Source of the DNA: a virus
IMG/VR virus record: IMGVR_UViG_3300047560_002412
Location: 62,001-126,000 of that record
Length of the DNA: 64,000 nucleotides
Strand: one strand, 5' to 3'
This document shows, one piece after another, positions 1-17,442 of the stretch; within the stretch, counting starts at the first letter, position 1; every line of letters starts with the position of its first letter. The notes under the pieces were generated by a model, which was not told where the DNA came from, ran no database searches, and saw nothing but the letters and a program-made list of their open reading frames with translations. The position numbers and the translations under genes are program-made.

Positions 1-483
1 GACCTGTAATACTAATCTCGGAGTGTATCCGATGTTGGATGATCCGTGATATGCTGCTTGGTCAACATATGCAAATACATCACCTGCTTTATAATCGGTA
101 ATTAACTCGTTATTAACGATAAACACATGTCCAGGTTCATAGTCCGTCCAGGGCATCCAATACCGTACTACATTCTTTTCAACGTCAGGATCTTGGTGCA
201 TATTCATATACTGAGACGGCAACATTTTTACCATCCACCAATAATATTCTTTACTTGTTAACCACGGTGGCACAATATCAAAAGGAACATCTGTATGTTT
301 GAAGTACCAAAAATGCACAGCATTCATATCATATCCACATTCTGCAGCTCTTTTATAAACTCGTGTATGATATTCATCTACCGGACATGATGGGGGGCGA
401 GCTTGACCTTGATTATTTTTAAAATATTCTAGCCATTCTGGTTGTATCCAATCTTTAAAATTACCAACAAATCTCAAATTCAT
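1..483 (-). CDS. 2OG-Fe(II) oxygenase, cut by window edge
   Basis: The reading frame is open from the ATG at 483 to base 1 (161 codons), so the C-terminus lies outside the window. The protein has the double-stranded beta-helix oxygenase signature: an iron-binding H96-Q-D98 (context NMHQDPD), a distal H146 (YHGSSNIG) and R156 (TPRLVLQ), the likely 2-oxoglutarate anchor. The PGHVF and YHGSSN blocks match those in the three oxygenases at 1898-3512, so this is a fourth, more diverged member of that family. The start is supported by GGGGAT upstream and a late-type promoter at 501-510. The substrate is unknown. The family call is fairly sure. Confidence 0.75.
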   Translation of the reverse strand, partial: MNLRFVGNFKDWIQPEWLEYFKNNQGQARPPSCPVDEYHTRVYKRAAECGYDMNAVHFWYFKHTDVPFDIVPPWLTSKEYYWWMVKMLPSQYMNMHQDPDVEKNVVRYWMPWTDYEPGHVFIVNNELITDYKAGDVFAYVDQAAYHGSSNIGYTPRLVLQV

Positions 484-500
484 ATAATATCCCCTGCTTC

Positions 501-510
501 AGATATTTAG
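501..510 (-). promoter_or_regulatory. T4-type late promoter motif (CTAAATATCT)
   Basis: Read on the minus strand, CTAAATAT lies 21 nt before the ATG at 483, with GGGGAT between them as ribosome binding site. It resembles the T4 late consensus TATAAATA. The opposite-strand motif at 529-536 makes this a divergent promoter pair. A six-base AT-rich core can occur by chance; position relative to the start is the main support. Confidence 0.5.
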
Positions 511-528
511 TTGGTGGTTAGTTGGTAC

Positions 529-536
529 AATAAATA
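529..536 (+). promoter_or_regulatory. Late promoter motif AATAAATA, start codon adjacent
   Basis: AATAAATA ends only 5 nt before the ATG at 541 in the string TAAATATTTCATG. The same 13 bases recur before the oxygenase gene at 13071. T4 late transcripts start about 6 nt after this motif, so the predicted mRNA 5' end falls at the start codon, implying a leaderless message. Confidence 0.5.
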
Positions 537-540
537 TTTC

Positions 541-1344
541 ATGATCAAAGGCATTAACAATCAACCTTATTTTAATCTAGAACAATATCTAGACATGGAT
601 ACGTTTGATCAACTTCAACCAGAAATTTTAAGAGGCTTTGCTGAGGCAAGAGAATATGCTAAAGAAGGAACCTGGATGGCTCCCGGATTTACCTTTGAGA
701 ATATGAGTTATCCTATTCACTGGAAGCCGGTATATCAGGCCATTCAAGAATTTTTAGCCCTGCCGGACAATGATCCTATCAAGCTAGGAGGCATTGACCT
801 TTATCGAGATTTTGAAAATTTTGAAATACGAAATAAATTTACACGTTATGTTAAAATGGCTATGGGTGCTTATGATCCATACATTTATTATTTCCTGTGG
901 GCACAAGGCGATTGGAACGACCGTACCGCTCCAAGAGCAATGACTCCCGAATCAAAATATTTTCCTAATGTAGTTAAGTGGGTTGAAAAAACTATAGAGG
1001 ATGGAATTTTTGAATATATCGGTCGTGTTATATTCTTTCATTGCGAAGCAGATGGAATTCCGTTTGAGCATCGAGACTTAGATGCTAAGAACGGTGTTAA
1101 TGTTGTTAAGCCACATCGCAACGAATTTATACACATTCGCCCTAATACAAAGAAAGCGTTCTACATCTGGGACCCAGAGAAGAAAAACAAAGTGTACCTA
1201 AACACTCGTGCTGCTTGGTGGAATGATGTAGACTGGCACGGCGGTGAACGTATTATGGAACAAAGCTACAGCCTACGTATTGATGGTAAGTTTACAGAAG
1301 ACTTCCGTAAGAAGTTAGGTATTGATCATTTAGACACATACTAA
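541..1344 (+). CDS. 2OG-Fe(II) oxygenase (hydroxylase-like)
   Basis: This 267-residue protein carries H177-R-D179 (FEHRDLD), H233 (DWHGGE) and R246 (SLRIDG), the facial triad and 2-oxoglutarate-binding Arg of the 2OG-Fe(II) superfamily. The first 175 residues look like no domain I recognise and may hold the substrate-specificity region. The open frame runs 30 nt further upstream, but the ATG at 541 is preferred because the late promoter motif lies between the two. There is no Shine-Dalgarno sequence. The gene converges on the SDR gene with a 4-nt overlap. It probably hydroxylates a protein side chain or small molecule; the target cannot be read from sequence. Confidence 0.7.
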   Translation: MIKGINNQPYFNLEQYLDMDTFDQLQPEILRGFAEAREYAKEGTWMAPGFTFENMSYPIHWKPVYQAIQEFLALPDNDPIKLGGIDLYRDFENFEIRNKFTRYVKMAMGAYDPYIYYFLWAQGDWNDRTAPRAMTPESKYFPNVVKWVEKTIEDGIFEYIGRVIFFHCEADGIPFEHRDLDAKNGVNVVKPHRNEFIHIRPNTKKAFYIWDPEKKNKVYLNTRAAWWNDVDWHGGERIMEQSYSLRIDGKFTEDFRKKLGIDHLDTY

Positions 1345-1901
1345 TTGTGCGGATTCATTTTTCTAGCATAATCCATAATTTCTGGTGTTTTCTTTAAAAT
1401 AAATTCAACGCTAAAAATCTTTGGTATTGCTAACCAAGTATCGATAATCTGTAGTATTTCTGAAAAGGATGCTTTATATTTGTCATCAACAAATATAGGC
1501 CAAGAAGAATTTTCACAAAACGCTAATTTAAGATAGAAAATATTTGCAAATAACGGATTGTCTTCTAAGGCAATTTCTTTACAACGCTCTTGAAGATTAT
1601 GTTTATTTGTTCCGTAGTCTTTCCATATCTTTGCCCAATCGGCTGCAACAGATCCTATAACAATCATTGTTTTTACTTTATCATGTAAAGCATTAAGAAG
1701 ATCTAATTGAGCAGTTCCATCGTAGGCACAATTTACAAATATATCGCAACCAATAGAATCATTAATTACACGCTCTTGATCCGATACAATATTGTAACCG
1801 TTTGACCTTGACATTCCTGTAACTTCCCATCCTTTAGACAGGAAATGTTCATATATAATTTTTCCAATCCCACTAGTGTGACCAGTTACTATACATTTCA
1901 T
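1341..1901 (-). CDS. Short-chain dehydrogenase/reductase
   Basis: The 186-residue protein has the SDR nucleotide-binding motif TGHTSGIG (residues 7-14), a catalytic Ser84 (IGSVA) and the Y96-x3-K100 active-site motif (YGTNK). It should be an NAD(P)-dependent oxidoreductase. It is shorter than typical SDRs (about 250), mostly through missing loops. The start at 1901 overlaps the stop of the upstream oxygenase as ATGA; a longer open frame to 1967 would intrude into that gene. It is the last gene of the minus-strand operon running from 6188. Coupling to hydroxylases suggests oxidation of a hydroxylated product, which is inference. Confidence 0.75.
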   Translation of the reverse strand: MKCIVTGHTSGIGKIIYEHFLSKGWEVTGMSRSNGYNIVSDQERVINDSIGCDIFVNCAYDGTAQLDLLNALHDKVKTMIVIGSVAADWAKIWKDYGTNKHNLQERCKEIALEDNPLFANIFYLKLAFCENSSWPIFVDDKYKASFSEILQIIDTWLAIPKIFSVEFILKKTPEIMDYARKMNPHN

Positions 1902-2455
1902 CTTGCAGGTCCAAAAAAATGAAACATATATTTTTCTGTCATTCCGCAGTTTAATCCACCGTGCCACATTGTTCTACTTGGCCACTGATATACTGAACCT
2001 TGTTCTTGATTGCAATATGCAGCATCTTCAGTCATAAAAACATGACCCGGTTGTGATTTCATAATAAAACAACAATATCTGACCATGTTAGGTATTTGAT
2101 CAAATTCGTTTTCGTGGCTGCTGGTATCCCAATGCCAATGTGCCATGTTGCCGGGAGTGATTCTTGCTATCCATGCCGCAATTGCATCTGCTTTAACAAA
2201 GTCACAGAATTTAGAAACAACTTCGTTGTCAAATTGTTGTCCAGGAAAAAACATATCCCATCTATTTGTGCCACCTTCTTCTACGGTCTTAACTCCGGCA
2301 TTTTTCCACTTGGTCATCAGGTCTTCCATGCCAACAATTTCTAAAGGGTCAAGAACAGAATTATTAGGACCAGTATGTGCAGGTTCTGATTTTTTTAAAT
2401 CTTCAATGACGCTGTTCCAATCGATTAAATTGCCAGTGTTTCCTATATACTTCAT
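1898..2455 (-). CDS. 2OG-Fe(II) oxygenase, tandem copy 1
   Basis: The 185-residue protein has H108-W-D110 (HWHWD) and distal H165 (MWHGGLN), the metal triad of a 2-oxoglutarate oxygenase. A Lys (EKYMFHFFG) sits where the 2OG-binding Arg usually is. It begins with the same 13 residues as the next gene upstream (MKYIGNTGNLIDW) and aligns with it throughout, so the two arose by tandem duplication. It overlaps its neighbours by 4 nt on both sides, which implies translational coupling. The substrate is unknown. Confidence 0.7.
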   Translation of the reverse strand: MKYIGNTGNLIDWNSVIEDLKKSEPAHTGPNNSVLDPLEIVGMEDLMTKWKNAGVKTVEEGGTNRWDMFFPGQQFDNEVVSKFCDFVKADAIAAWIARITPGNMAHWHWDTSSHENEFDQIPNMVRYCCFIMKSQPGHVFMTEDAAYCNQEQGSVYQWPSRTMWHGGLNCGMTEKYMFHFFGPAR

Positions 2456-3003
2456 CGCTTGACTCCAAAAAAGTTAAACAGATATTTTGGTGTCATTCCG
2501 CAATTGATACCACCGTGCCAACTTGTACGATCCGGCCATTGCCACACACTACCCTGTTCTTGAAAATATAAACATTCATCCTCGACCATAATAACATGTC
2601 CTACTTGAGGTTTACTTATATTACAGCTTATCCTTACCATGTTTGGCATTGCAGAATATTCTTTTTCGTTATCATTTGCATCCCAATGCCAAGGTGTTAA
2701 ACAACCAGGGTTTACTCTGCTGATCCAGCAGCTTATAGGGTTAACATTAACATAGTCGGAAAACAAATCAACAATGGATTGATTAAAATTTGTATGTGGG
2801 AAAAACATATCCCATCCTGCATTACCACCATCTTTAATTAATACAAAACCAGCGTCATTCCATTTTTTAGAAACATCACTAATACCCACAATGTCGTCAT
2901 CACCAGAATGTCGAGGACCCACATATCCCGGAGTTTGATCCGAAAGAGAATCTACAATAGATTGCCAATCAATGAGATTTCCAGTGTTTCCTATATATTT
3001 CAT
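2452..3003 (-). CDS. 2OG-Fe(II) oxygenase, tandem copy 2
   Basis: This 183-residue paralogue of the downstream gene has H106-W-D108 (PWHWD) and H163 (SWHGGIN), with K173 in the 2OG-anchor position (TPKYLFNFFG). It shares an identical N-terminal 13 residues and near-identical 5' DNA with copy 1, whereas the middle is diverged. This pattern suggests divergence of substrate specificity or local gene conversion. It overlaps by 4 nt with each neighbour. Confidence 0.7.
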   Translation of the reverse strand: MKYIGNTGNLIDWQSIVDSLSDQTPGYVGPRHSGDDDIVGISDVSKKWNDAGFVLIKDGGNAGWDMFFPHTNFNQSIVDLFSDYVNVNPISCWISRVNPGCLTPWHWDANDNEKEYSAMPNMVRISCNISKPQVGHVIMVEDECLYFQEQGSVWQWPDRTSWHGGINCGMTPKYLFNFFGVKR

Positions 3004-3512
3004 TTGTATCCTAAAAAATGATATAGATAATGGTCTTCAAACCCGCAGTTACTTGATCCATGCCAAGACATAACTTCCGGCCATTCTACTACGGTACCTT
3101 GAGGTACCATATAAAAAGATTCTTTATCAATTAATAAAATTTGTCCATGTGCAGGAGTACCAATATGACAGGTAAATCTTTTTAGGGTTCCTAATTTTAA
3201 ATATTCTTCCATGCTATCATCGATGTCCTGATGCCACGGTGCATTTTTTCCCGGGCGAACTTTACTAATCCATGATCGAACTTCTGTAAGTCCTACTTGT
3301 TTAGAAAACTCATCACTTATATTTTGATCAAAATGTTTACCGGGATAATAATTAATCCATTCAACTTTTTGTGGAGTATATCCAGCTTCGGTCCACATGG
3401 TAATTATTTCATTAAATCTACCATCTGTATTTTGATAAAAAGTTCCACCCATTGATCGAACTTCGCCGTCCTGTGTTTTTATACCGTCTAGCACTTGATT
3501 CCAATTTATCAT
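3000..3512 (-). CDS. 2OG-Fe(II) oxygenase, tandem copy 3 (diverged)
   Basis: The 170-residue protein has H94-Q-D96 (PWHQDID) and H151 (SWHGSSN), matching the tandem family but without the MKYIGNTGN start. The second half (PQGTVVEWPEVMSWHG) lines up with copies 1 and 2. It begins inside the TAATG junction with the radical-SAM gene at 3512, so it should be translated with that enzyme. Copy order 3-2-1 downstream of one radical-SAM enzyme suggests that all act on the same or related products (inference). Confidence 0.7.
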   Translation of the reverse strand: MINWNQVLDGIKTQDGEVRSMGGTFYQNTDGRFNEIITMWTEAGYTPQKVEWINYYPGKHFDQNISDEFSKQVGLTEVRSWISKVRPGKNAPWHQDIDDSMEEYLKLGTLKRFTCHIGTPAHGQILLIDKESFYMVPQGTVVEWPEVMSWHGSSNCGFEDHYLYHFLGYK

Positions 3513-5536
3513 TAGTGTTCCTTTTTATTACCTTGAATTATTTTCTTTGTTTCAAACGTTCTATTTTTAATATATGTACCATCAGCTACCCGTATAGTAT
3601 CCATATTTCGAATCATATTAATATATTGATCGGTCCATTTAATTTTTGTATTTGGAATTGTTTTTAAAAGAATACTTCCTTCGATAGGTGGATCTTCTTT
3701 AGATTTTCTTTCCTCATATAAATCCCAACGATATTTTGTTTCCCACTCGACTTCCTCTGCTGGGTCTTCTCTAAAAGTACTATTCTCAACATAAGTTAAT
3801 AAATCGTCTAAGGGTTCATCTATATGTTCTGCTAATTGTTCTCTCAGACTTTTAAATATTTCTTTTCTGGATGAAACCCAACAATATATCAAACCTTCAT
3901 TAATAGAAAAATCACCTCTCACAGGACCAACATTAAACTCTCGCCAAGGTAAATTTTCTCGAGTACCATTAATAATGCTCTCCATATAACCATTTACTGG
4001 AGTTTTAAATTTTTCACAATTCCACATTGCTGTGTGAATTATTTTATATGAATATCGAGGTAGTATACCTTTCTGATAATTTAAATAATCAACTAACGGT
4101 TTAACAAGAAGATTATTAATTAATGGAATTTTCATATCGTTCATTAAGAACATTTCTTTCCACTCTTCTTCTGTGTACGAATAACACGAAACCGGTATGT
4201 ACATAGCATATTGTTTTTTAGGAAATTGTTTTTTAAAATTTACTATGTACTTTGAATCACTATATTGCTTAAGAAGATCCATAGTTTCCATATTAATACC
4301 CGCAAGTTTCATTTGAAATTTTTCAAGATATGCAGGGTCTGCTATAGGAGCATCTGGAAGAACATATAATGGTACATGGTGTGACACGGTTTTAATTTTA
4401 TTAAACACCGCATCTTCAATTTCCATTTCTTCATAAAATACAGGAATGGTGCTTCCTGGTAAACCAATAATTAATTCAATTAATGTTTCAGCATCGTACT
4501 TTTCAATAAAATATTTTGCCAACTCAACATTTTCTTCTGCAGGAATATCAAAACGTTCTACATTTTTTAATACTTGAGGATCTATACTCTGTAAACTTAC
4601 TTGATAAAATTGTAATACTCCGGATTCAAATAATGGTTCTAATACCGCTTTTTTCTTTTCGACACTAGATTTAGCCAAGCCCATGATCCCAACAAATTTA
4701 ACATGTTCTTTCATTGCTGCTATCATGTGTGCTATCTCAACATCTTGTTTTAATATTCCATAATTTGCATCTGTTATGAATACTGATCCTACGCCTAAAT
4801 CTTTAAAATATGAAAAGTCATTTCTAATATTTTCTAAATCTTTGACAATAACTTTTGTTGATGTTCCTCCACCCCATTCACAATACGAACAACTATAAGG
4901 ACATCCTCTATTTGTTTCATACAATGTAACTAAAACTCTATCATGTGATTTAGCATATTCTGACCATGCGTAACAAATGTCTAAATTCTTTTCAATCAAT
5001 CCCCACGGATAGCTAAAATCTTTTTTATTTCCTAACGGACCTTTTCCTTTTCTATGGTAACTATTCCTAACGTTATTCCAATTTAAATCACCTTCAATTA
5101 CACTATCTAACATATCAGTAATAAAAAATTCACCATATTCTACTGCTTGACAGGTTGCATCAAAATACGGATGATCCTTAAACCAAAAAATTGGATCTGT
5201 ATAAGTAGTTCCTTGATTTGGGCCGCCTAGAACAATCAACGCATTTGGATGTGCTTCTCTAACGGCAAGAGCAATTATTTTAATAATATCCCAACTCCAC
5301 ATATAACTGCTAAACATGTATACGTCTGCGTTGGCATTAATGGCTTCTTCAACTACATCATCTAACGTTTGACCAGTGTAATCCATCACGGGAGGAATCC
5401 ATTCCCACTTATCAGAATGTTTTCCGTGGTCTTCGTAATATCTTTTAAATTCTAACCAAACAAGAGGTAAGAAAAGATAGATGTGCTGCTGAACATCCCA
5501 TCTAAAGAACCATATTTTTTTCTTAGACTCTGTCAT
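3512..5536 (-). CDS. B12-binding-type radical SAM enzyme
   Basis: The 674-residue protein has an N-terminal region (about 1-150) like a cobalamin-binding Rossmann domain, with a VLGGPNQG turn near 102-109. A radical-SAM domain follows, with C212-x3-C216-x2-C219 (NRGCPYSCSYCEWGG) to hold the [4Fe-4S] cluster and SAM. About 200 C-terminal residues are unassigned. The arrangement is that of class B radical-SAM methylases and related enzymes; the usual DxHxxG cobalamin motif is not evident, so B12 use is uncertain. The paralogue at 32240 has its cysteines at the same residue numbers. It overlaps the upstream gene by 14 nt and heads the oxygenase array. Confidence 0.75.
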   Translation of the reverse strand: MTESKKKIWFFRWDVQQHIYLFLPLVWLEFKRYYEDHGKHSDKWEWIPPVMDYTGQTLDDVVEEAINANADVYMFSSYMWSWDIIKIIALAVREAHPNALIVLGGPNQGTTYTDPIFWFKDHPYFDATCQAVEYGEFFITDMLDSVIEGDLNWNNVRNSYHRKGKGPLGNKKDFSYPWGLIEKNLDICYAWSEYAKSHDRVLVTLYETNRGCPYSCSYCEWGGGTSTKVIVKDLENIRNDFSYFKDLGVGSVFITDANYGILKQDVEIAHMIAAMKEHVKFVGIMGLAKSSVEKKKAVLEPLFESGVLQFYQVSLQSIDPQVLKNVERFDIPAEENVELAKYFIEKYDAETLIELIIGLPGSTIPVFYEEMEIEDAVFNKIKTVSHHVPLYVLPDAPIADPAYLEKFQMKLAGINMETMDLLKQYSDSKYIVNFKKQFPKKQYAMYIPVSCYSYTEEEWKEMFLMNDMKIPLINNLLVKPLVDYLNYQKGILPRYSYKIIHTAMWNCEKFKTPVNGYMESIINGTRENLPWREFNVGPVRGDFSINEGLIYCWVSSRKEIFKSLREQLAEHIDEPLDDLLTYVENSTFREDPAEEVEWETKYRWDLYEERKSKEDPPIEGSILLKTIPNTKIKWTDQYINMIRNMDTIRVADGTYIKNRTFETKKIIQGNKKEH

Positions 5537-6188
5537 AAATTTTATTATAAATTTTTTCTAAATTTTCCGGCCATTTGCTATAAGTTAATAATCCAGATTT
5601 AAAAATAGTTTCGATATTTAACATACCGTTTTCTTGTGCCTTTGTAAATCTATCAGTATCTAACCCAATCAATCCTAATAATTGGTTATAATCGAGATAC
5701 GGATAATCTCTTTCAATTGTAGCATAAAAATCTATTGTTCTCATATTTCCATTATCATCGTAATAATGACTATGCGGATATATTGTTGCTTTTAAATAAC
5801 CTAAGCTGAACTGATCAAGAATTATATTTTCTAAATTTGAATACCAATTAATATTAAGATCGTGGTCTCTATAAACAGAATCATTGCAGGTTTTACCATA
5901 CCATTTAATAAAAATTTTCTTATCTATTATATCAATAACTTCTGGTGCGTATGGACGATCTTTAAATATTTCTAAATATTTTATTTCTCGATTAAAGGCA
6001 AATTCAACATGGTCAGCTGTATAAGAAAGACGTTGTTGATTGAGTTGATAATCACACGGAAAACAAAAATTCATACAGAAAACATCACCTTGAGGACTTA
6101 CTCTCGGTTCATAACACATTTGGGTAGTTGTAGGACGAAGTTCTGTTTCGTGTGTCTTGTAATAAAGATTCCAATCTTCAATGTTCAT
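5523..6188 (-). CDS. Unknown protein, possible kinase-like fold
   Basis: I do not recognise this 221-residue protein with confidence. The stretch YPHSHYYDDNGNMRTIDFYA (about 137-156) resembles the catalytic-loop and IDF segments of aminoglycoside-phosphotransferase or choline-kinase-like proteins (H..., D-x-N-G, IDF). The catalytic HGD Asp is not conserved, so it may be an inactive kinase or something else. An N-terminal cluster C38-x3-C42-x2-C45 also mimics the radical-SAM spacing, but without a TIM-barrel sequence around it. It is the first gene of the minus operon and has a textbook late promoter at 6207-6214. Confidence 0.6.
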   Translation of the reverse strand: MNIEDWNLYYKTHETELRPTTTQMCYEPRVSPQGDVFCMNFCFPCDYQLNQQRLSYTADHVEFAFNREIKYLEIFKDRPYAPEVIDIIDKKIFIKWYGKTCNDSVYRDHDLNINWYSNLENIILDQFSLGYLKATIYPHSHYYDDNGNMRTIDFYATIERDYPYLDYNQLLGLIGLDTDRFTKAQENGMLNIETIFKSGLLTYSKWPENLEKIYNKIYDRV

Positions 6189-6240: not shown

Positions 6241-7632
6241 ATGAAAGATAAAATACAAACATATATTAAAATAGTAGAAGAAAAAACAGGCTCTCCTACT
6301 TTTTGTGCATTACCATGGATACACTTAGCTACTCGCCCAAACGGCGATGCTCGACTATGTTGTGTTACAAATGCATCCGGTGCTCGCACAGGAGACCACG
6401 AAGTTGGGCTAGTTAAAAAAGAAAACGGACAACCTGCAAACTTTGGTAAAGATACTCTATTATCTGCATTCAATAACGAATACATGAAAAGTGTTCGTAA
6501 AACTATGATAGAGGGAAAAATTCCTGCTAGTTGTACCAAATGTTTTGAAGAAGAAAATAACGGAGTTGTTAGCAAACGTCTTTGGGAATTATATGAGTGG
6601 AATCGAGACGGGTTGGATTTTCAACAATTAATTAAAGATACTTCCGAAGACGGATCAGTACCTCCGATTATTAGATACATGGATCTTAGACTAGGACACA
6701 CTTGTAATTTAAAATGTGTTATGTGCAGTCCACATGATAGTAGTCGCTGGTTACAGGACTATGATAAAGTCATGGATGGATTAAAAAGTAAGGTTGTTAA
6801 ATTTCAATTAAATTTTGAAAAAACAGAATTCAATAATACATGGTATGAAAAGCCGGAATTCTGGGAAGAAGTGTTTGAACAAATCCCTAATATTACACAA
6901 CTTTATTTTGCGGGCGGAGAACCCTTAATGATTAAGGAACATCGAAGGTTCCTTGATGAGATTATTAAACGCGGCTACGCTAAAAACATTAGTCTACGTT
7001 ATAACAGCAATGGTATATTTGTTAATGAAGATATAATTAATGTCTGGAGTCAATTCAAACAGGTTCGATATGCATTCAGTATAGACGCCTACGGTGATCG
7101 AAATCATTATATTAGATTTCCTGCAGATTGGAGTGATATAGAACGTAGTTTAAGATTAATGGATGATGCTCCAGATCACATACATTGCGCCATTGCCTGT
7201 GCTGTACAAGCATTAAACATCAAACATATTGTTGACTTTGCTAAATGGAAATTGAGTCAAGGGTTTAAAAAGATTAATAAGTTTACACTAGACGAATATC
7301 AAACAGGCGGCGGAATTATTAATCTTCATTTGTTATACATTCCTACTTTCCTAAGTGCTAGAATTTTACCTAAAGAAGATAAAGAGCAAGTTAGAAAACA
7401 ATTTGAAGATTTTAAACAATGGCTATGGGAAAATTATACTCAAGATGATAATTTTTGGAATACTAATCCCTATGGATGGAAGAGATGGGAAGCTATTTTA
7501 AAATTTGTAGAAGCAGAGGATCATACACATCTGCTCCCCGATTTTATAGATTATATCAATAACCTAGACCAAGTGCGAAACACTAAATTTTCTATTATTT
7601 TTCCTGAGCTCTCGCATTTATTTGTCGAATAA
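6241..7632 (+). CDS. Twitch-domain radical SAM enzyme
   Basis: The 463-residue protein begins with a SPASM/twitch-like cysteine region (C22, C40-C41, C98-x2-C101, around PWIHLATRPNGDARLCC), which normally binds an auxiliary Fe-S cluster. The radical-SAM core follows, with C155-x3-C159-x2-C162 (HTCNLKCVMCSP) and the GGEP-type SAM motif (FAGGEPLM, near 223-230). This reversed order, auxiliary domain first, is the one seen in phage and RiPP-associated enzymes of this kind. Family members usually modify peptides or proteins. It converges on the SGNH gene with a 38-nt overlap. A paralogue lies at 10207. Confidence 0.8.
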   Translation: MKDKIQTYIKIVEEKTGSPTFCALPWIHLATRPNGDARLCCVTNASGARTGDHEVGLVKKENGQPANFGKDTLLSAFNNEYMKSVRKTMIEGKIPASCTKCFEEENNGVVSKRLWELYEWNRDGLDFQQLIKDTSEDGSVPPIIRYMDLRLGHTCNLKCVMCSPHDSSRWLQDYDKVMDGLKSKVVKFQLNFEKTEFNNTWYEKPEFWEEVFEQIPNITQLYFAGGEPLMIKEHRRFLDEIIKRGYAKNISLRYNSNGIFVNEDIINVWSQFKQVRYAFSIDAYGDRNHYIRFPADWSDIERSLRLMDDAPDHIHCAIACAVQALNIKHIVDFAKWKLSQGFKKINKFTLDEYQTGGGIINLHLLYIPTFLSARILPKEDKEQVRKQFEDFKQWLWENYTQDDNFWNTNPYGWKRWEAILKFVEAEDHTHLLPDFIDYINNLDQVRNTKFSIIFPELSHLFVE

Positions 7633-8356
7633 TTTCATCAGCAAATTTTCTATGCCAACTAATTGATGGACTTACTCCGTCTCTAGCAATATCTGTTTGA
7701 TCATCAATAGCGTTGCAATACATTTGCCATGGAACGGTAAAGGTATCAATGTTATGCATCTGACAAACTAATTCCACCATATGTTTATTTTTATCTCTGT
7801 TGTACTTACAACTGGTATTGTCTATGCCCATAAAGTAACCTTTATATGGCGGATCAGAATATGCTGTAACACTTTCGTGAAAGTTATCTAAAAATACTTC
7901 GCGCCTTACATCTTGTGGCCACATAATAATAGCACTAAGTTTTTTACATCTAGGTAAAAAATAAGGTATTGTACAGGCTACCATTCTTGCAATAGTATCA
8001 GGAGATGCTTTGGCAATGGCTAAATTTAAAATTCTAACATTTGGTATTTCTCTTTCAACTACTCTAAGAAAAACATCATCCTCGGGTATGGCAACACCTG
8101 CTGTAGAACTATGTCCGAATCCTAAAAACAATTCATCGTACTGATGATACGAGTCTTCAAATTCTTTTTCTCTATAACCTAGACTATTGATCACATACTC
8201 AACATCGTCCGTATTATATTTTGCATTTTCGGGTTTATCGGGACTCTGTGGAAACAGATCATTCCCCCATTTAAAACTAGATCCTGCTACCTTTTTCATA
8301 GGACTTGCTGCTACCCATGATGGCGGAATGTGTGGATAGAAATATTTGTTAGACAT
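7595..8356 (-). CDS. SGNH/GDSL-like hydrolase
   Basis: The 253-residue protein has the block pattern of SGNH hydrolases. Block I is altered (GFGHSSTAG, 79-87, with Ser83 or Ser84 as candidate nucleophile), block III is N111 (NLAIAKASPD), and block V is D226 with H235 (ARDGVSPSISWHRKFAD). The D...H spacing and the downstream helix fit a catalytic dyad. Such enzymes remove or transfer acyl groups from glycans, lipids or small molecules. The gene overlaps the upstream radical-SAM gene by 8 nt, so the two are co-expressed. The first block deviates from GDS, so activity is not certain. Confidence 0.65.
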   Translation of the reverse strand: MSNKYFYPHIPPSWVAASPMKKVAGSSFKWGNDLFPQSPDKPENAKYNTDDVEYVINSLGYREKEFEDSYHQYDELFLGFGHSSTAGVAIPEDDVFLRVVEREIPNVRILNLAIAKASPDTIARMVACTIPYFLPRCKKLSAIIMWPQDVRREVFLDNFHESVTAYSDPPYKGYFMGIDNTSCKYNRDKNKHMVELVCQMHNIDTFTVPWQMYCNAIDDQTDIARDGVSPSISWHRKFADEIIRQINARAQEK

Positions 8357-10206: not shown

Positions 10207-11469
10207 TCAAATATATTTTTTAAATTCGGGAGTCACATCTGTAAAAGATTGATTCCTTGTTTCATCTAATCGTTGATTAAATTCTATACAATCTTTCCAA
10301 GAATGGCTTTCATCTTTGGCTATTAGGAAATTTTGAACACCTTCAATTTGTTTAATAGTAAGGTCTAATAACATTGGATGTTGTTTAACTAGTTTATAAT
10401 TGAGTATTTTACTTTTTACTGCTTCTAATCTATGATATGCAAGAGTTTTTAATTCAGCCGGCAATACTTGGATAGATAATACATCTGGATATTTTACCAT
10501 ATTGGTATAAAATACAATTCCTAAATCATTTAAAAAATATTCTATCATTTTATCTAAAATTAACACGTTGCTAACCTGCACAGCAACAGCCCCAACGATG
10601 CGACTAATATTAGGAATAGTTTGTATTTGTTTTATATTATCGATCAGTGTGTTCCAATTGGCATTACCTCTAACATATTCATAACTAGGTCCTATACCGT
10701 CAATACTTACATTTACAGCAACAGATTTAAACTTAGGCCAGTATTCCCAAATAGTTCTATTACCCTTGCCTAACATACTCAAGTTTGTTGCGTACTTAAT
10801 TTCAATCTGATGACCATATGGTGCAAGCATATCTAATATGCGATAATGCTGAGGATCCATTAAAGGTTCGCCACCAGCAAACTCTACACGTCTAAAGTGT
10901 GGCAAGTTCTTTTCTAAACTAGCCCACCAATTTGGATTATCTTCAAACTTGTCTAATAAAGGTTTGCGCTCTAGATTGTGATCCTCTACTAAATCAAAAA
11001 TAACCTTTCCTGTATCTTTGTAATACTTTTTTATTACATTCCAATCGTTCCAACTTGTGCTATCTCCTGGGTGACACATGCGGCACTTAAGATTACACAA
11101 ATTGTTTAATTTTAGTTCCATTGTAGGTATTTCAAAGGGCATTGTATAATCGTCATTTAAGCGTTTTAAGGCATTGGGGTACAAGTTGACCCTAGCTTCA
11201 GGAATTACACCGCTTATATGACGTTGTCGCAAGGATTCGACGCCCTGATCTTCTAGGCTAAAACACGGTTCGCATTCTGGAGGACGTATGTTAGTAAGTA
11301 CTGACTTACGAATCCGTTTCATTTCGTCATTATTCCAAACTTCTTCCAAAGTCTGTTTTTGAATAAAACCTATTGGATGACTTCTACAACATACTTGAAT
11401 AGCTCCATCCTCTCTGGTAGCAAGGCCAGTAAATGGATGCATACAAAATGTTTTACTTGTTTCGTTCAA
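10207..11469 (-). CDS. Twitch-domain radical SAM enzyme, TTG start proposed
   Basis: The protein has an N-terminal twitch-like cysteine set (C9, C27-C28, C66-x2-C69 from the proposed start) and radical-SAM C125-x3-C129-x2-C132 (NNLCNLKCRMCHPG) with FAGGEPLM downstream. It is the paralogue of the enzyme at 6241. The longest ATG frame starts at 11571 and would overlap the QueC-like gene by 119 nt. The TTG at 11469 overlaps it by 17 nt, begins just before the conserved KTFCMHPF block and has AAAGGG about 10 nt upstream, so it is preferred. About 420 residues. Confidence 0.75.
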   Translation of the reverse strand: MNETSKTFCMHPFTGLATREDGAIQVCCRSHPIGFIQKQTLEEVWNNDEMKRIRKSVLTNIRPPECEPCFSLEDQGVESLRQRHISGVIPEARVNLYPNALKRLNDDYTMPFEIPTMELKLNNLCNLKCRMCHPGDSTSWNDWNVIKKYYKDTGKVIFDLVEDHNLERKPLLDKFEDNPNWWASLEKNLPHFRRVEFAGGEPLMDPQHYRILDMLAPYGHQIEIKYATNLSMLGKGNRTIWEYWPKFKSVAVNVSIDGIGPSYEYVRGNANWNTLIDNIKQIQTIPNISRIVGAVAVQVSNVLILDKMIEYFLNDLGIVFYTNMVKYPDVLSIQVLPAELKTLAYHRLEAVKSKILNYKLVKQHPMLLDLTIKQIEGVQNFLIAKDESHSWKDCIEFNQRLDETRNQSFTDVTPEFKKYI

Positions 11470-12187
11470 TTGCCCAGGCCCTTTCTTTACACCAGAAACA
11501 TTCTCCGCAGGTTGGAATTGTCTGTCCTGGTGTATATGTTGTATAGTCGATACCGTCAAACTCTCCCTCACAGCTTCGTGTAATGTTTAACAGGTCTTCA
11601 AGATCTAATCTTTTGTATTGTTTAATAACCCAATCCTTCTCTACGAAACGGAAAGGATGTACGGCCCAACGCCCCATATGCTGCATCAGAACCAAATGTT
11701 TATTATTCTCAGTGGGCTCAATATCACGTTCATGCATTCCGTTAAATTGTGCAAGTCTTGGATTATGAGTTACCGCATTATAGTATGCAGGTATATTATG
11801 TTTATGACAAATAAATTCAGCGTAAGCACGTTGTTGAATATTGTCGCCACTTACGTTCTTGCCATACTCATCTGTTAAAGTTGGTCCTATGTTTCCGTAT
11901 TCTATTTCAGGTGCTATAAAATTAGTGTGACGAATAAACTTCTTATGATAGTGTCGTTGAAACAACCAGTTATAAACTCTATCAGCATCGTGTTGTTGCC
12001 ATGGGCGTGTTTTCCACATACGCACATGATTGATAATGTGGATGGTAACATTGTCATCGGCATATGAACATAACAAGTGTGCTAGTAATGCAGAGTCTGC
12101 ACCGCCGCTTACACTAATAGCAATGCTTGGCCATTTAAAATCAAATGGCAATTCGACGTTGTCTACATTTAATGTATCAAGCTGCAT
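11453..12187 (-). CDS. QueC-like PP-loop ATPase
   Basis: The 244-residue protein has a PP-loop motif SGGADS (27-32) that binds ATP, and a C-terminal zinc-type cluster C227-x2-C230-x2-C233 (TCGECFWCKER) preceded by RSC. This is the architecture of QueC, which converts carboxy-deazaguanine to preQ0, and of related ATP-dependent amidating enzymes. The long insert with His-rich stretches is unlike classical QueC. A second, shorter QueC-like protein is at 49986. It could equally be an asparagine-synthetase-like or other adenylating enzyme, so the symbol is withheld. Confidence 0.7.
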   Translation of the reverse strand: MQLDTLNVDNVELPFDFKWPSIAISVSGGADSALLAHLLCSYADDNVTIHIINHVRMWKTRPWQQHDADRVYNWLFQRHYHKKFIRHTNFIAPEIEYGNIGPTLTDEYGKNVSGDNIQQRAYAEFICHKHNIPAYYNAVTHNPRLAQFNGMHERDIEPTENNKHLVLMQHMGRWAVHPFRFVEKDWVIKQYKRLDLEDLLNITRSCEGEFDGIDYTTYTPGQTIPTCGECFWCKERAWAIERNK

Positions 12188-13031
12188 TTTCTAAATACCT
12201 TATTAATGGACTAACTCCCACAGGTTGATTATTTTTTAAAGCCAGATAAATTGAATTAGTTTGTGTTAAATTAAAATCTTTACACACTTTATAATATTTG
12301 TCTCCGTGCGTATTCCACAAATAATCTGATTCTAAATTGCGAACAAAATGCAAACCTATCATAGCTAAAGCACGATTGTTCATATGAAAATCATTCATAA
12401 TACTAACACTATCTGCTTTATCATCTCTAGACCATCTTAAACCTATTCTGTTCCACCCTAAACCAAGACCTTTACTAAGGCTGATGCCAACGGATCTAAT
12501 AACTTCATTACTAAAATCAAAATTAATATCGCGGCAGCAACTGATCCAAGCACCGTCAATATGTACTTCAATGTTCTTAATTTTGCATTCATGCAAAACT
12601 TCCTCCATGTCTTGATGTGGTGCACCAACGCTAGGAAACGGCATTGCTATAATTAAAGGAATATCTGGAATTAGCGAGCCCACATCTTTAACATACGCTA
12701 ATCCTAATCTTTCGTGGTATCTGTAATCTCCACGAAGTACTTGTACCGGACCTTTCATATATTGATTGTCTATAAATTGTGTACAACCAATGATAATATT
12801 TTTGTAATTAAATGCATCTAAACCTATTAATGTGTTTAGTCTAGATTTAAGCAACCAATTTTCACATTCGGTTTTAAAATTTTCATAGACTTTATCAGTA
12901 ATGTCTTTTTCCAATTTACCATTCAATACTTCTGTGATTAAATTTTCAATTTTATTATCCGACAGAGGTTGCGGTCTTTCAACTTCTAACCATTTTTCAT
13001 CATATGTTGGTGCTATTTTTATTCTGTCCAC
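12177..13031 (-). CDS. PLP-dependent aminotransferase-fold enzyme
   Basis: The 284-residue protein contains HIDGAW (D159, expected to pair with the pyridine nitrogen of PLP) and SLSKGLGLGWNRIG (K187, the likely Schiff-base lysine). Both are typical of fold-type I aminotransferases and decarboxylases. It is about 80-100 residues shorter than most, lacking much of the small domain. The start is a GTG at 13031, with a late promoter motif ending 5 nt before it. It overlaps the QueC-like gene by 11 nt, so amine donation and ATP-dependent chemistry may be coupled (inference). Confidence 0.65.
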   Translation of the reverse strand: MDRIKIAPTYDEKWLEVERPQPLSDNKIENLITEVLNGKLEKDITDKVYENFKTECENWLLKSRLNTLIGLDAFNYKNIIIGCTQFIDNQYMKGPVQVLRGDYRYHERLGLAYVKDVGSLIPDIPLIIAMPFPSVGAPHQDMEEVLHECKIKNIEVHIDGAWISCCRDINFDFSNEVIRSVGISLSKGLGLGWNRIGLRWSRDDKADSVSIMNDFHMNNRALAMIGLHFVRNLESDYLWNTHGDKYYKVCKDFNLTQTNSIYLALKNNQPVGVSPLIRYLENAA

Positions 13032-13035
13032 AAGA

Positions 13036-13043: not shown

Positions 13044-13058
13044 CTAGTAATAGTAGCA

Positions 13059-13066: not shown

Positions 13067-13070
13067 TTTC

Positions 13071-13739
13071 ATGCTGACTAAAACGAATATTAAATTAGAC
13101 ATTGCCCCAATTATAGAACAAGTTTCTTCATTAGATTTTGAAAAAAGTCTAACCCTAAACTATACAACTGGCAAACTCCTCAACGGTCCTTATACAACCA
13201 AACCAGAGTATGTAGGAACCCCATTAGGTGATGCATTAGAATCGATTGGAAATTTAGGAGAAGCACGATTACTCAAATTAAATTCTGCAGAGTCTTATAC
13301 CGCTCATGCAGATCCCGATGATCGCATTCATGTGGCCATAACAACTAATCCTCATTCGTATCTAATTAACTTAACTGATAATCAACTTTATCATTTACCG
13401 GTAAATGGAGAAGTATGGCATATGGATACTAGTAAAATGCATGTGGCAGCAAACTTTGGGGCAAGGCCTCGAATACATTTAAACATCAGGGTAGCATTAC
13501 CTAAATTTAAAGCGCCAGGATATTCTTTAAAAATTGAAGGTGGAGACTATGATTGGAAACAAGAGTCCTATACTACTCTAATGGCGTTCTTCAATCGAGC
13601 TATTAAATCAAATTATATAACTGGTTTTGAAAAAGTTAACGAAAAAGAAGTATTATTAAATTGTAATCCGCCTATCCTCGATGCTAAAATTAATGAATTG
13701 AAAGATAAAGGTTTTGTAGTATCTCTTACTCCAGTATGA
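13071..13739 (+). CDS. Aspartyl/asparaginyl hydroxylase-like 2OG oxygenase
   Basis: The 222-residue protein has H79-A-D81 with R85 (AHADPDDRIHV), H124 (MHVAANFG) and R134 (RPRIHL). These blocks are characteristic of the aspartyl/asparaginyl beta-hydroxylase branch of 2OG-Fe(II) oxygenases, which hydroxylate protein side chains. It forms an ATGA overlap with the radical-SAM gene downstream, so the two are a translational pair. It starts at the ATG right behind the late promoter motif. Confidence 0.7.
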   Translation: MLTKTNIKLDIAPIIEQVSSLDFEKSLTLNYTTGKLLNGPYTTKPEYVGTPLGDALESIGNLGEARLLKLNSAESYTAHADPDDRIHVAITTNPHSYLINLTDNQLYHLPVNGEVWHMDTSKMHVAANFGARPRIHLNIRVALPKFKAPGYSLKIEGGDYDWKQESYTTLMAFFNRAIKSNYITGFEKVNEKEVLLNCNPPILDAKINELKDKGFVVSLTPV

Positions 13740-14782
13740 CATTCTATCCTGACCCAATAAAAATCTTAGATATAGAACCAAGTTCGTATTGTAATGCTAA
13801 ATGTCCTCATTGTATGAGGGAAAGTCAGAACGGAGATTATAGTTTTTTCAAACAGGTAAACTTACATGAAAGTTTCTTCAATGTATTTTTTCCTACCGAA
13901 GTTGCAGCTCAATTAAAAATTGCATCGTTCAGCGGTAATATTGGTGAGCCTGCAATGAATAAGGATCTATTAAACATACTTCGTTGGTTTCGTAAACAAA
14001 ATCCAAATGTATTCTTAGAAGTTTATACTAATGGTAGCGTTCAGCAACCGCAATGGTGGATAGAACTTGGCAATATTATCGGCAATAATGGTAACGTTAT
14101 ATTTGCTATTGATGGTTTGAAAGATACTAATCATATCTATCGAGTAAACGTTAAATGGAATAAATTGATTCAAAATGTAAAGGCATACATCAGTACAGGA
14201 GCAACAAGCACTTGGCAGTTTATTCCATTTAAACACAATCAGCATCAGGTTGAAGAAGCTGAACAAATGAGTAAAGACCTAGGATTTAGTCATTTTAAAA
14301 TTAAAATTTCTCATAGAGAATTATTAAATCAACCACAAAATCAAATTAATGCTGTTGAGCCTACTGACGATCCAAGATTTGTACACCAAGGACAAAAATT
14401 AGATTTTCTAAACATGAAGAAAACCGAAGATTATCTTGATTCTGTAGATATTAAATGCTACGCAATTGAAGAAAGAAATTTATATATTTCTGCGGAAGGT
14501 TTAGTTTTTCCTTGTTGTCACACAGCAAGTATATTTTTATTAGATGATAATTTACTTCCCGAAGGGTATGATTGGATTAAGAATGCTAAAAAGGATTTTG
14601 ACAAAGACGAAATTAGTCTTTATAAAAACAAATTAGAAAATATCTTATCATCTAATACATTTAATAAAATAAAAGAATCGTGGTCTCTTAAAATGTCTAG
14701 CGGTAGGAATCCACTATGCGCTGCTGTTTGCGGTAAATGTTCTAATAAAGGTAGTCTTATAGAAGGTCTACTGGGCCTTTAA
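13736..14782 (+). CDS. Radical SAM/SPASM enzyme
   Basis: The 348-residue protein has an early C19-x3-C23-x2-C26 (SSYCNAKCPHCMRES) and a C-terminal SPASM-like region. That region holds KCYA (about 242), VFPCCHT (about 262) and CAAVCGKC (about 332-339). The FSGNIGEPAMN segment replaces the GGEP motif. It is a clear paralogue of the convergent gene at 14768 (VIFAIDGL, FKHN.HQV, KCYA and VFPCC blocks are shared). SPASM enzymes typically oxidise peptides; the substrate here is not known. Confidence 0.8.
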   Translation: MTFYPDPIKILDIEPSSYCNAKCPHCMRESQNGDYSFFKQVNLHESFFNVFFPTEVAAQLKIASFSGNIGEPAMNKDLLNILRWFRKQNPNVFLEVYTNGSVQQPQWWIELGNIIGNNGNVIFAIDGLKDTNHIYRVNVKWNKLIQNVKAYISTGATSTWQFIPFKHNQHQVEEAEQMSKDLGFSHFKIKISHRELLNQPQNQINAVEPTDDPRFVHQGQKLDFLNMKKTEDYLDSVDIKCYAIEERNLYISAEGLVFPCCHTASIFLLDDNLLPEGYDWIKNAKKDFDKDEISLYKNKLENILSSNTFNKIKESWSLKMSSGRNPLCAAVCGKCSNKGSLIEGLLGL

Positions 14783-15859
14783 TTCAGTTTTACTAATAAA
14801 TTGATCTTGGGGAGTAGAAAATAATTCTGGTTGTACTCCGCAGGTTCTTACACAGGTAATCAATTTATTCTCATTCCAATAGTAATCCCAAACTGATTGA
14901 TATTCTGTCGAATCAATTATATCTTTTAAAGATTTTTTATCAACATTTAAGTTATCAATTCCGCCCAAACTTTCTACAAGTTGTTCGTATTGATGAAACA
15001 TTTCGTTTCTTACTGCTCTTAATTCAGATAATTCATCGGGTGCTTGGTATGGAATCATTGACAACCAGCAACACGGAAAGACATGTCCTTGAGCATTTAT
15101 ATATACTTCTTTCATTTTAACAGCATAACATTTAATTTCTGTTCTCTTTACAATGTCTTTATATTGATCAATTACTTTTTTGTCAATAAATTTAATTTCT
15201 GAGTACTGACTAGGTTCTAGATAATATATAGTTTCTTTATTTTTATTGTAAACAGGAAACTTAGCATCTAATAAAAATCGAGAACTATCTTTCATAGTAA
15301 AATCTTCAAACCCTAATTCATAAGCTCGGTTTTTAGCTTCACTAACTTGATGTTCATTATGTTTAAATCTTATGAATGCCCATTCGGCCCGACCACCTGC
15401 CAAAATAAATGCTCTAGCATTCTCTATAATTTTTTCATAATCGGTACCAATTCTATAAATTGCCTGCGTATCTTCTAATCCGTCTATGGCAAATATTACT
15501 TTATGATTCTTGGGCAACGCAATGGCTAACTTGGCCCACCATGATTTACTACGAAGGCTTCCATTTGTATGGATTCGTAATTCTATTTCTGAGTTCATCT
15601 GTCTTGTATAATCAACCATTTCTAACAAATGATTGTTAAGAAGAGGATCTCCGTAGTTTCCGCAAAAATATATTGCTGAAATTTGAGTTAGAACTTCTTT
15701 ATTGATAATTGACTTGTATCGATCTAGAGTCCAGGATTCGGTTTTGATAAGAGGATTTTCAATTCCTCCGTGAATATTCCGAGTACACATAGGACAACTA
15801 GCCTGGCAGTTATTTGATATTTCTAAATGAAGCTGTCTTAGGTCACTAAACTTAAACAT
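14768..15859 (-). CDS. Radical SAM/SPASM enzyme
   Basis: The 363-residue protein has C18-x3-C22-x2-C25 (SNNCQASCPMCTRN), FCGNYGDPLLN in the SAM-binding position, and C-terminal auxiliary-cluster cysteines (KCYA, VFPCCW, CVRTCG). It is a diverged paralogue of the gene at 13736 and lies tail-to-tail with it (15-nt overlap), as if an inverted duplication produced the pair. It is translated directly after the upstream methyltransferase gene (1-nt overlap). Confidence 0.8.
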   Translation of the reverse strand: MFKFSDLRQLHLEISNNCQASCPMCTRNIHGGIENPLIKTESWTLDRYKSIINKEVLTQISAIYFCGNYGDPLLNNHLLEMVDYTRQMNSEIELRIHTNGSLRSKSWWAKLAIALPKNHKVIFAIDGLEDTQAIYRIGTDYEKIIENARAFILAGGRAEWAFIRFKHNEHQVSEAKNRAYELGFEDFTMKDSSRFLLDAKFPVYNKNKETIYYLEPSQYSEIKFIDKKVIDQYKDIVKRTEIKCYAVKMKEVYINAQGHVFPCCWLSMIPYQAPDELSELRAVRNEMFHQYEQLVESLGGIDNLNVDKKSLKDIIDSTEYQSVWDYYWNENKLITCVRTCGVQPELFSTPQDQFISKTELKAQ

Positions 15860-16461
15860 TATTTTTTACCGATAATCATGAATCTTTTATACAATGGTAA
15901 GTCTAGCTCACCTGCATATAAAATTTTTTCTAATCCACATTGTTGTTTAAATTCATTTAGATCTTTAGCAATGCGTACATGCTCTGGAATGTCGTAGTTA
16001 TTACTTTGTAGAACAAACAAACTATTGTGTGGCATACCACTCAACCACAATTCATATTGATCTTGTGAGATGTGTTCAAAACTTGTATTAATAATAATAT
16101 CAGCATCACTTCTGATACTACACATATCACCGGTCACTGCACGGAACCTACCAGCCTCAAGTTCCATTTGATTCATTAGGTTTGCTATAGGTTCGCAGGT
16201 CGGATCAATGTCAATACTTCTAATGTTATTAACAAACAACTCGCTTTGGAATATAAGACTCGATAATGTTCCTACCCAGCCGCCATGAATGTCTACACTT
16301 GGCCAAGTTTTAAAATTACCGCGTTGTTTAATTAATTCTTTTATAAGCCATTCTTTACTACTCATCTGGCCTTTCCAGAAAGCATCTAAGGTTCGCATGG
16401 GGTCTTTGCTTTCACGGATGGCACACATCCAATAGTGTAAATGTTCTAGGTCTATTTGCAT
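15859..16461 (-). CDS. SAM-dependent methyltransferase-like protein
   Basis: The 200-residue protein reads as a class I Rossmann methyltransferase. A glycine loop (VDIHGGWVGT, 57-66) is followed by an acidic strand end (SIDIDP, D84/D86), VTGDMCSI (109-116) and ADIIINTSFEHIS (120-132). The start at 16461 (ATG CAA ATA) overlaps the upstream stop by 10 nt; a longer frame to 16509 intrudes further. It lies between two radical-SAM genes in one operon. The target is unknown. Confidence 0.65.
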   Translation of the reverse strand: MQIDLEHLHYWMCAIRESKDPMRTLDAFWKGQMSSKEWLIKELIKQRGNFKTWPSVDIHGGWVGTLSSLIFQSELFVNNIRSIDIDPTCEPIANLMNQMELEAGRFRAVTGDMCSIRSDADIIINTSFEHISQDQYELWLSGMPHNSLFVLQSNNYDIPEHVRIAKDLNEFKQQCGLEKILYAGELDLPLYKRFMIIGKK

Positions 16462-17432
16462 TTTGGTATCTTTGAATCTGCCGAGCTTACGCAGGCCGGA
16501 GTAATACAACGACGTGGTTCTTTAAATAATTTAAAATTGTTTAATGTTCCTAGTGGTTCATCGTGACAACTATAAGATCTTTTAACTTCATCACTACGAA
16601 TTATAACACTTTGATAGCCGCTATTACAAGACCATCCTTCAAACTTATTAAATCCAAAGGCATTAAACCGTTCTGCCTGGTCAAATAAGTATTCTTTTCC
16701 TTCAGAATCATACAATGCTATTTGATAGACATCAGCATTTCCTGATTTTTGTGGGAATCCTGTTTGCATTAAATGAATCATTTCTTCTGTATATCCATCA
16801 ACTACAAAACTTGCAGTTGGATCGCTCTGTGGTTTTAGAGTAACGTTAATTCCCCTCGAATGTAGTCTTTCACACCTTTCATATAATTCAAAAAAGTTTT
16901 CAGGAACCATAACTTGATTGACGGTAACATGAACTAATTCATACATGAGCTGTAGACATTTGTCACTAAACTCCTGTTCTTTAGCAAATTCTGAATGATA
17001 ACTTGCTGTTATACTTCGCCGTTGAAGCATTTCGGTATTTGAACACCAAGTCTTCCACCATTTACTACCGGGACTTAAATTGGTAGTCATGTGTATGCTT
17101 TGGTAAGGTGTTTGGGGACCGTCATCAATATGTTTAACTAGGTCTAATAATTGTTTATAGGCAGTAGGTTCCCCTCCGCTAAAAGACCAATGAAACTTAT
17201 TAAAACCATTTTCCCTAGCTTGATTTTTAATTTCGTCTATGGCTTTGGTATAAACGGAAAACTCTTGATAATCTTGCTTATCCGATCTAGCATATGGCCA
17301 GCAGTAACTACATTTGTAATTACAAAATCGTCCTAAGATCCAACTAACAGAAAACAAATTGTCAGACAACATAGTTCGTTGTCCAAATCTTGTTATATTT
17401 TGAAATGGTATTTCTTGAAAATTGATATTCAT
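16452..17432 (-). CDS. Radical SAM enzyme with C-terminal cysteine domain
   Basis: The 326-residue protein has C37-x3-C41-x2-C44 (GRFCNYKCSYCWP), an FSGGEPT SAM motif and a C-terminal EGWSCNSG...YSCHDE...CITPAC block that matches the enzymes at 8349 and 9277. The start at 17432 (MNINFQ) is chosen because a late promoter motif lies 11 nt before it; the longer open frame to 17456 would start upstream of that motif. It heads the three-gene operon 17432 to 14768. Confidence 0.8.
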   Translation of the reverse strand: MNINFQEIPFQNITRFGQRTMLSDNLFSVSWILGRFCNYKCSYCWPYARSDKQDYQEFSVYTKAIDEIKNQARENGFNKFHWSFSGGEPTAYKQLLDLVKHIDDGPQTPYQSIHMTTNLSPGSKWWKTWCSNTEMLQRRSITASYHSEFAKEQEFSDKCLQLMYELVHVTVNQVMVPENFFELYERCERLHSRGINVTLKPQSDPTASFVVDGYTEEMIHLMQTGFPQKSGNADVYQIALYDSEGKEYLFDQAERFNAFGFNKFEGWSCNSGYQSVIIRSDEVKRSYSCHDEPLGTLNNFKLFKEPRRCITPACVSSADSKIPKCK

Positions 17433-17442
17433 AAACTGAACA

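Follow-up and report, generated by a model that had tools for sequence, protein, structure and literature searches.

The virus record IMGVR_UViG_3300047560_002412 (G000) comes from an uncultivated bacterial virus and comprises 128,727 bases of an incomplete genome. We analyzed a 64,000-nucleotide stretch of this record (hereafter the window, C1:62001-126000; coordinates prefixed C1: are record positions and those without a prefix are window positions), the left end of which holds an island of genes for radical S-adenosylmethionine (SAM) enzymes, oxygenase-like proteins and partner enzymes. The island contains about 20 tightly packed enzyme genes (Table 1), those of the core overlapping by a few nucleotides, with intergenic gaps that are usually negative or tiny. 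Its left end lies 1.9 kb beyond the window's left edge; to the left of the end of OxA (C1:62483) are KinB, a GNAT-like gene and a further open reading frame (ORF) with an HxD motif, the series ending at C1:60150, and the overall extent of the cassette is C1:60150-79456.

Genes of the island

All eight radical-SAM ORFs that a preliminary description had noted in this 17-kb island contain the CxxxCxxC motif and match PF04055 or radical-SAM models of NCBIfam, and we regard them as real. Both R0 copies fall under the Pfam cut-off for PF04055, yet match radical-SAM/SPASM models. Five of the ORFs belong to three families, R0 (13736 and 14768), R1 (8349 and 9277) and R7 (16452). TWI1 and TWI2 are members of N_Twi_rSAM (NF033640), both exceeding the curated cut-off of 170 bits; note that this model is named after its domains only, and that the name assigns no reaction. 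B12R is closest to KedN5-like C-methyltransferases (NF033712, 4e-34), far under the cut-off of that model. By profile, the best solved relative of TWI2 is the peptide maturase SkfB, that of R7 is an anaerobic sulfatase maturase, and the solved structure nearest to R0 (14768 entry) is cytosylglucuronate decarboxylase. Three radical-SAM genes lie outside the island (C1:13442-14932, C1:52282-53505 and window positions 32240-33850), bringing the total for the record to 11. (A role in defence was considered and set aside: a PADLOC scan gave generic viperin-like radical-SAM similarity only, with pVip matches of at most 47 bits, and NCBIfam viperin scores were at most 43 bits against a cut-off of 180.)

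The six oxygenase-like ORFs (1-483, 511, 1898, 2452, 3000 and 13071) retain an HxD...H motif that is invariant or nearly so within each family, HxD being present in 81/81 full-length members of the OxA family. To this extent the six oxygenases described earlier were recovered; none of them reached a curated cut-off for a 2-oxoglutarate (2OG)-Fe(II) family, with only AspH coming close (PF05118, 22.3 versus 22.6 bits). Ox277 matched no profile from Pfam, NCBIfam or PDB and was assigned by its motif. OxA and OxB are related to one another and, weakly, to the AspH group.

The partner enzymes named in the preliminary description are likewise present, on evidence of differing kinds: weak profile matches for the short-chain dehydrogenase/reductase (SDR)-like gene (found in 10 other loci), a motif for the SGNH-hydrolase-like gene, conserved motifs for the QueC-like PP-loop enzyme (PPl), a predicted structure matching fold-type I enzymes (E about 2e-8) for the pyridoxal-phosphate (PLP) enzyme, and motifs only for the methyltransferase (MT), which had no library or PDB match. 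PPl did not reach the cut-off of the QueC family profile, giving only weak matches to phrog_1550, TIGR02432 and PF01171. PDB profile searches with PPl, PLP, Ox277, MT and the neighbour gene c19 (see below) returned nothing useful. Neither KinA nor a second ORF resembling the degenerate kinase fold, at C1:61297 outside the window, had been named before. The ninth radical-SAM gene paired with a TauD-like oxygenase, and the P4H-like gene, were found as described, through matches to PF04055, PF02668 and PF13640. Of the 119 ORFs in the record with at least 120 amino acids, only 7 end in TAG, yet 4 of these 7 are cassette genes. A transfer RNA with a CUA anticodon is predicted, but another stop follows the TAG stops within 31 codons, and we assumed no amber recoding.

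Table 1. Features of the island and its right flank in window coordinates
Feature	Position	Strand	Evidence
OxA, HxD oxygenase-like, truncated by window edge (full gene C1:61983-62483)	1..483	-	own family, 84 members
Ox277, putative 2OG-Fe(II)-type oxygenase	511..1344	+	H187, D189, H243, R256 invariant (alignment A6)
SDR-like; homologues start ~22 codons later	1341..1967	-	PF01370 0.0012, NF005436 1e-5, below cut-offs
OxB copy 1	1898..2455	-	HxD...H invariant across family A7
OxB copy 2	2452..3003	-	52% identity to copy 1
OxB copy 3	3000..3512	-	family A7
B12R, B12-binding-type radical SAM	3512..5536	-	PF04055 43 bits; PF02310 below cut-off
KinA, degenerate kinase-fold protein	5523..6188	-	profile A8 to Ser/Thr kinases and Bud32, E 4e-5 to 2e-4
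TWI1, N-terminal twitch radical SAM, cassette anchor	6241..7632	+	NF033640 398 bits
SGNH-hydrolase-like	7595..8356	-	GFGxSS motif in 7/7; no library match
R1 radical SAM with C-terminal Cys cluster	8349..9245	-	PF04055 47 bits; family A15
R1 paralogue, radical SAM	9277..10206	+	PF04055 44 bits
TWI2, second N-terminal twitch radical SAM, start probably downstream	10207..11571	-	NF033640 340 bits
PPl, QueC/TilS-like PP-loop enzyme	11453..12187	-	SGGxDS and C-x2-CFWC in 44/44
PLP enzyme, short, fold-type I aminotransferase-like	12177..13031	-	S-x-SKGxGxG in 55/55
AspH, Asp/Arg-hydroxylase-like oxygenase	13071..13739	+	PF05118 1.3e-4; invariants in alignment A14
R0 radical SAM with SPASM-like C-terminus	13736..14782	+	PF13186 22.5 bits; PF04055 20 bits, below cut-off
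R0 paralogue, radical SAM	14768..15859	-	PF04055 29.0 versus 29.5 bits
MT, class I SAM-methyltransferase-like; homologues start ~16 codons later	15859..16509	-	GGWxG...DxDP motifs, family A5
R7 radical SAM, also kept in Bdellovibrionota	16452..17456	-	PF04055 44 bits; alignment A10
Flank: Ser/Thr-rich protein, adjoins R7 in several viruses	17778..18365	+	no family match
Flank: P4H-like 2OG oxygenase	18362..18901	+	PF13640 31.2 bits
Outlying pair: TauD-like oxygenase and B12-type radical SAM	31206..33850	+	PF02668 5e-12; PF04055 2.5e-10
Tail-fibre gene, right boundary context; strong fibre genes start here	34176..41318	+	phrog_9851 tail fibre 3e-47

Tail-fibre context and expression

The island sits between tail-fibre genes, as a variable island of the host-recognition cluster of T4-like phages does. 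On the left, its end lies 42 bases after a tail-fibre-like gene (C1:58594-60108) whose match is weak (7.5e-5), and on the right the strongly matching fibre genes begin with the last entry of Table 1. No fibre of the FFNSGGE type was found in this virus. In the 70 nt preceding ORFs the hexamer TAAATA occurs 10 times against 1.6 expected, and the ORFs so preceded include 6188(-), 13031(-), 13071(+) and the tail-fibre gene at 34176. The TAAATA promoters proposed earlier are supported by this enrichment; the full ATAAATA motif, in contrast, showed none across the whole window. Because TAAATA is found upstream of both cassette operons and tail-fibre genes, the cassette is probably expressed late, in keeping with the earlier proposal of a multi-step, virus-encoded pathway that acts late. 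Moreover, an IscA-type Fe-S carrier gene is present in this record (C1:3014-3322), and such a gene is encoded in 9 of the 16 viral records tested, the window virus included, which is consistent with a real demand for Fe-S enzymes.

Conservation among viruses and a counterpart in Bdellovibrionota

A search with TWI1 recovered 80 viral loci from IMG/VR at 60-100% identity. ORF calling and clustering placed the same families in nearly all of them, in variants of one order: R7, MT, R0 and TWI1; on the opposite strand R1, TWI2, PPl and PLP; then AspH, KinA and OxB. Among the 43 loci of at least 17 kb, which are partly non-independent in that they include the same or closely related viruses (L006 and L087 being essentially the window virus), TWI1 and R1 were each found in 43, R0 in 42, TWI2 and AspH in 41, PLP in 34, MT in 32, PPl in 31 and R7 in 30; accessory genes were counted in few (SDR 5, B12R 4, SGNH 4). 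CxxxCxxC is kept by every full-length radical-SAM member, the SKG lysine motif by all PLP enzymes and SGGxDS by all PPl proteins. Carriers have 9-17 radical-SAM genes each, and a T4-type portal protein was found in three large carriers, the other tested records, many of them fragments, giving no match. The island is a conserved cassette carried by large tailed phages, and with its block syntenic in dozens of viral contigs, as the synteny search suggested earlier has now revealed, and its radical-SAM motifs retained, it is more than a chance gathering of genes. An IMG/VR search with B12R found three carriers only, and one neighbour contig shares 97% identity with the window in TWI1 but 50% in the nearby B12R, uneven divergence of the kind expected if modules recombine. 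A search of 50,697 catalogued phage records returned nothing close to TWI1, partial matches at 23-30% identity being the best, and a nucleotide search of isolated phages with the whole island gave no match.

A load of such enzymes far above the phage norm had been claimed for the island, and it is indeed unusual, but there are precedents. The Campylobacter phages CP220 and CPt10 encode 11-12 radical-SAM proteins, and in these T4-like phages an interchangeable module carries five radical-SAM genes, an amidinotransferase gene and two NDP-sugar-transferase-like genes in a row (PMC2853527). CP220, with 11 radical-SAM genes in its genome, has R0-like members (90-98 bits) but no family match to TWI1, TWI2, PLP, PPl, AspH or MT in the stretch tested, and its gene order is different. 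The Pelagibacter phage Mosig EXVC030M has R0-, R1-, MT-, PLP- and SGNH-related genes and Asp_Arg_Hydrox oxygenases in a host-recognition cluster (PMC7029224) that lies between tail fibres and VrlC and includes genes for a UDP-aminosugar aminotransferase, a carbamoyltransferase and an epimerase; unlike the cassette, however, only two radical-SAM genes there pass our scan, and the UDP-aminosugar aminotransferase, the carbamoyltransferase and nitroreductases replace the TWI/R7 core. The Tara T4-like genome TARA_ERS488813_N000010, which we compared by its description only, has 12 radical-SAM genes, a similar load, and likewise a virus-encoded Fe-S carrier, of the A type (PMC5332604). What sets the cassette apart from these modules is its TWI1/TWI2/R7/PPl/PLP/AspH core, its load of 2OG enzymes, its conservation and its bacterial counterpart. 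Our literature search found no paper describing the cassette and no function assigned to the known phage modules (PMC2853527, PMC7029224, PMC5332604).

The bacterial counterpart was found with the family alignment of TWI; a genome-wide scan with TWI1 alone had come back empty, its patterns being too specific. Orthologues of TWI1 with 45-49% identity occur in Bdellovibrionota, with R7, R0, MT and c19 alongside. The chromosomal core, R7-R0-TWI1 and often MT and c19 as well, is patchily distributed (R7 in 17/291 Bdellovibrionota genomes), and it differs from the viral cassette in that it often has 3-5 genes and usually lacks 2OG, KinA and PPl genes. Part of the same gene set exists outside phages, one half of what would have counted against the preliminary description, but the homologues belong to no known pathway. 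In the TWI1 tree the viral sequences form a clade separate from a sister bacterial one (moderate support, 89/70 and 89/63), so the viral set does not appear to have been captured recently. A 3,537-base locus labelled as a Thermoplasmata archaeon (L089), which carries R0, TWI1 and a pair of R1 genes, is placed within the viral clade of this tree and may be a misbinned virus. Adjoining the bacterial core operon in two loci is a protein with tandem KLFWLPNEVRKLxYKYGR-type repeats (L093:4723-5562, L096:10823-11275), and prepilin-like proteins, which are possible substrates, directly follow R0 in two related Bdellovibrionota genomes (L187:13707-15728, L188:13486-15120).

Several other features of the record were observed. 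It has about 34 tRNA genes and a tmRNA (tag ANDTRFALAA), with sites at C1:45.3k-54.5k, C1:10638-11029 and C1:7387-7461, the tRNA with a CUA anticodon being called tRNA-Pyl by ARAGORN. A phage DnaK (C1:21609-23513) was closest, at 67% identity, to that of a metagenome-assembled genome of Burkholderiales among the 13 bacterial and other genomes tried, a weak hint of a betaproteobacterial host. Ser/Asn/Gln-rich curlin-like and CsgG-like ORFs, identified by eye at C1:27.0k-34.4k, resemble the curli module of pelagimyophages.

Candidate product and target of the pathway

Glycosyltransferase (GT)-like genes recur beside the cassette in other viruses. The GT-A-like gene c19, present in 8 of the 16 viral records tested, encodes a DGDN motif, and the top PDB matches of its model are GT-A enzymes at a low TM-score (~0.3). 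In three phages (L076, L077 and L082) a block comprising a fibre-like protein, a protein of 111-116 amino acids, two GT8-like genes, two copies of c19 and R7 is closely followed by R0, MT and TWI1. A Bdellovibrionales locus, L107, repeats the block that precedes R7 in those phages, with a fibre-like protein (E 9e-8 to L076), a protein of 119 amino acids, two GT8-like genes, c19 and TWI, and the bacterial operon L191 (TWI1-R7-c19-GNAT-PLP-R0-SDR) lies a few kb from genes of O-antigen type, so named from the appearance of their sequences. The GT-like viral neighbours and the O-antigen-type bacterial neighbours point to a glycan-like product over plain hydroxylation of side chains, as do the likeness of R0 to cytosylglucuronate decarboxylase and the related modules in isolates, and the late-type motif and fibre context suggest the virion as target.

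The explanation that we favour, tentatively and somewhat short of regarding it as probable, is that the cassette encodes a modular late pathway that places a sugar-like decorated group on a protein with which the virion recognizes its host, such as a tail fibre. The core (R7, MT, R0, TWI1, R1, TWI2, PPl, PLP and AspH) would build a modified group, probably amino-sugar-like or sugar-nucleotide-like, with radical steps by the radical-SAM enzymes, amination by the PLP enzyme, carboxylate activation by the QueC-like PP-loop enzyme, methylation by MT and hydroxylation by the 2OG enzymes. Swappable genes (the B12 methylase-like radical-SAM gene, extra OxA and OxB genes, SGNH, GNAT and SDR, and in other viruses an amidinotransferase-like gene) would vary the decoration, and glycosyltransferases, whether phage-borne (c19 or GT8-like) or host-borne, would attach the group to the virion protein or, failing that, to the host surface. 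The reaction at each step, the sugar-like character of the product and its target are inferred, and several observations weigh against the proposal. The functions of the individual enzymes are read from motifs and weak profiles, and modification of a fibre from gene context. In its predicted structure, the PLP enzyme is like the aminotransferases that act on amino acids and unlike the DegT type that acts on sugars. No c19 gene is present in the window virus, which also had no Pfam-recognised glycosyltransferase among the genes tested, its ORF at 29094-29822 being GT-like by motif only; genes for sugar-nucleotide synthesis were not identified in the island. In most Bdellovibrionota loci, moreover, the core has neither a fibre nor an O-antigen neighbour.

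Were the product instead to alter the surface polysaccharide of the infected host, in the manner of serotype conversion, it could block superinfection or stop progeny from sticking to debris. Surface alteration has been proposed for the glycosyltransferase-rich host-recognition cluster of pelagimyophages (PMC7029224), the core operon of L191 has an O-antigen-type cluster close by, and the accessory genes vary as O-antigen tailoring genes do. However, the late-type motif is easier to reconcile with virion assembly than with exclusion early in infection, several viruses have fibre and GT genes next to the cassette, and no flippase or polymerase gene was identified, so that we consider this explanation unlikely. 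Direct modification of the side chains of a virion protein by epimerisation, cross-linking, C-methylation or hydroxylation, with no glycan, would accord with the kinship of TWI2 to SkfB and of R7 to the sulfatase maturase, with the Ser/Thr-rich protein adjoining R7, and with the presence of AspH- and P4H-like oxygenases, which in other systems hydroxylate proteins. The GT-A-like, GNAT, SGNH, SDR and PLP genes better fit the tailoring of a small molecule or glycan, however, and no conserved candidate substrate accompanies the cassette, leaving this possibility distinctly unlikely.

Two other products had been suggested for the island, a ribosomal peptide and a nucleotide, and of the three substrates put forward in the preliminary description these are the least supported and the virion the best. 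Radical-SAM, B12-dependent radical-SAM, 2OG and methyltransferase enzymes do occur together in natural-product clusters such as those of proteusins, and the cassette might make a secreted small molecule or a ribosomally made peptide. Within the cassette, however, the overlaps between core genes leave no room for a precursor gene and none was found among the core enzymes; genes for nonribosomal peptide synthetases, polyketide synthases and transporters were not identified in the island, and the cassette is placed between tail fibres. We therefore regard a product of this kind as improbable. A deazaguanine-like or other hypermodification of nucleic acid would recall PPl and the QueD-like (PF01242, 28438-28971) and QueC-like (PF06508, 49989-50585) genes of the window, as well as the weak resemblance of some radical-SAM genes to QueE. 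However, those genes exceed QueE in length and find better matches in other PHROGs; neither FolE nor a TGT/DpdA-type DNA transglycosylase was found in the record, which is incomplete, and the Fe/2OG, SGNH and GNAT genes would be left unexplained. This last explanation appears to us highly improbable.

The cassette may also represent a previously undescribed pathway, an old lineage that phages have kept as their own and that Bdellovibrionota share, whose several twitch/SPASM radical-SAM enzymes and oxygenases would produce a new type of sugar- or amino-acid-derived group; attached to virion fibres, this group would be varied between viruses to alter recognition. We consider this possible and rather doubtful. 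Since 2010, phage modules rich in radical-SAM genes have been described with no function attached to them. The cassette is now a defined unit: the order of its core genes is conserved, its periphery can be swapped, dozens of viruses carry it and 3-5 genes make up a minimal counterpart in bacteria. This makes the question of function testable, related genes being present in the isolates CP220 and Mosig. If its product does decorate tail fibres, phages would have a radical chemistry of their own for altering the surfaces with which they recognize their hosts.

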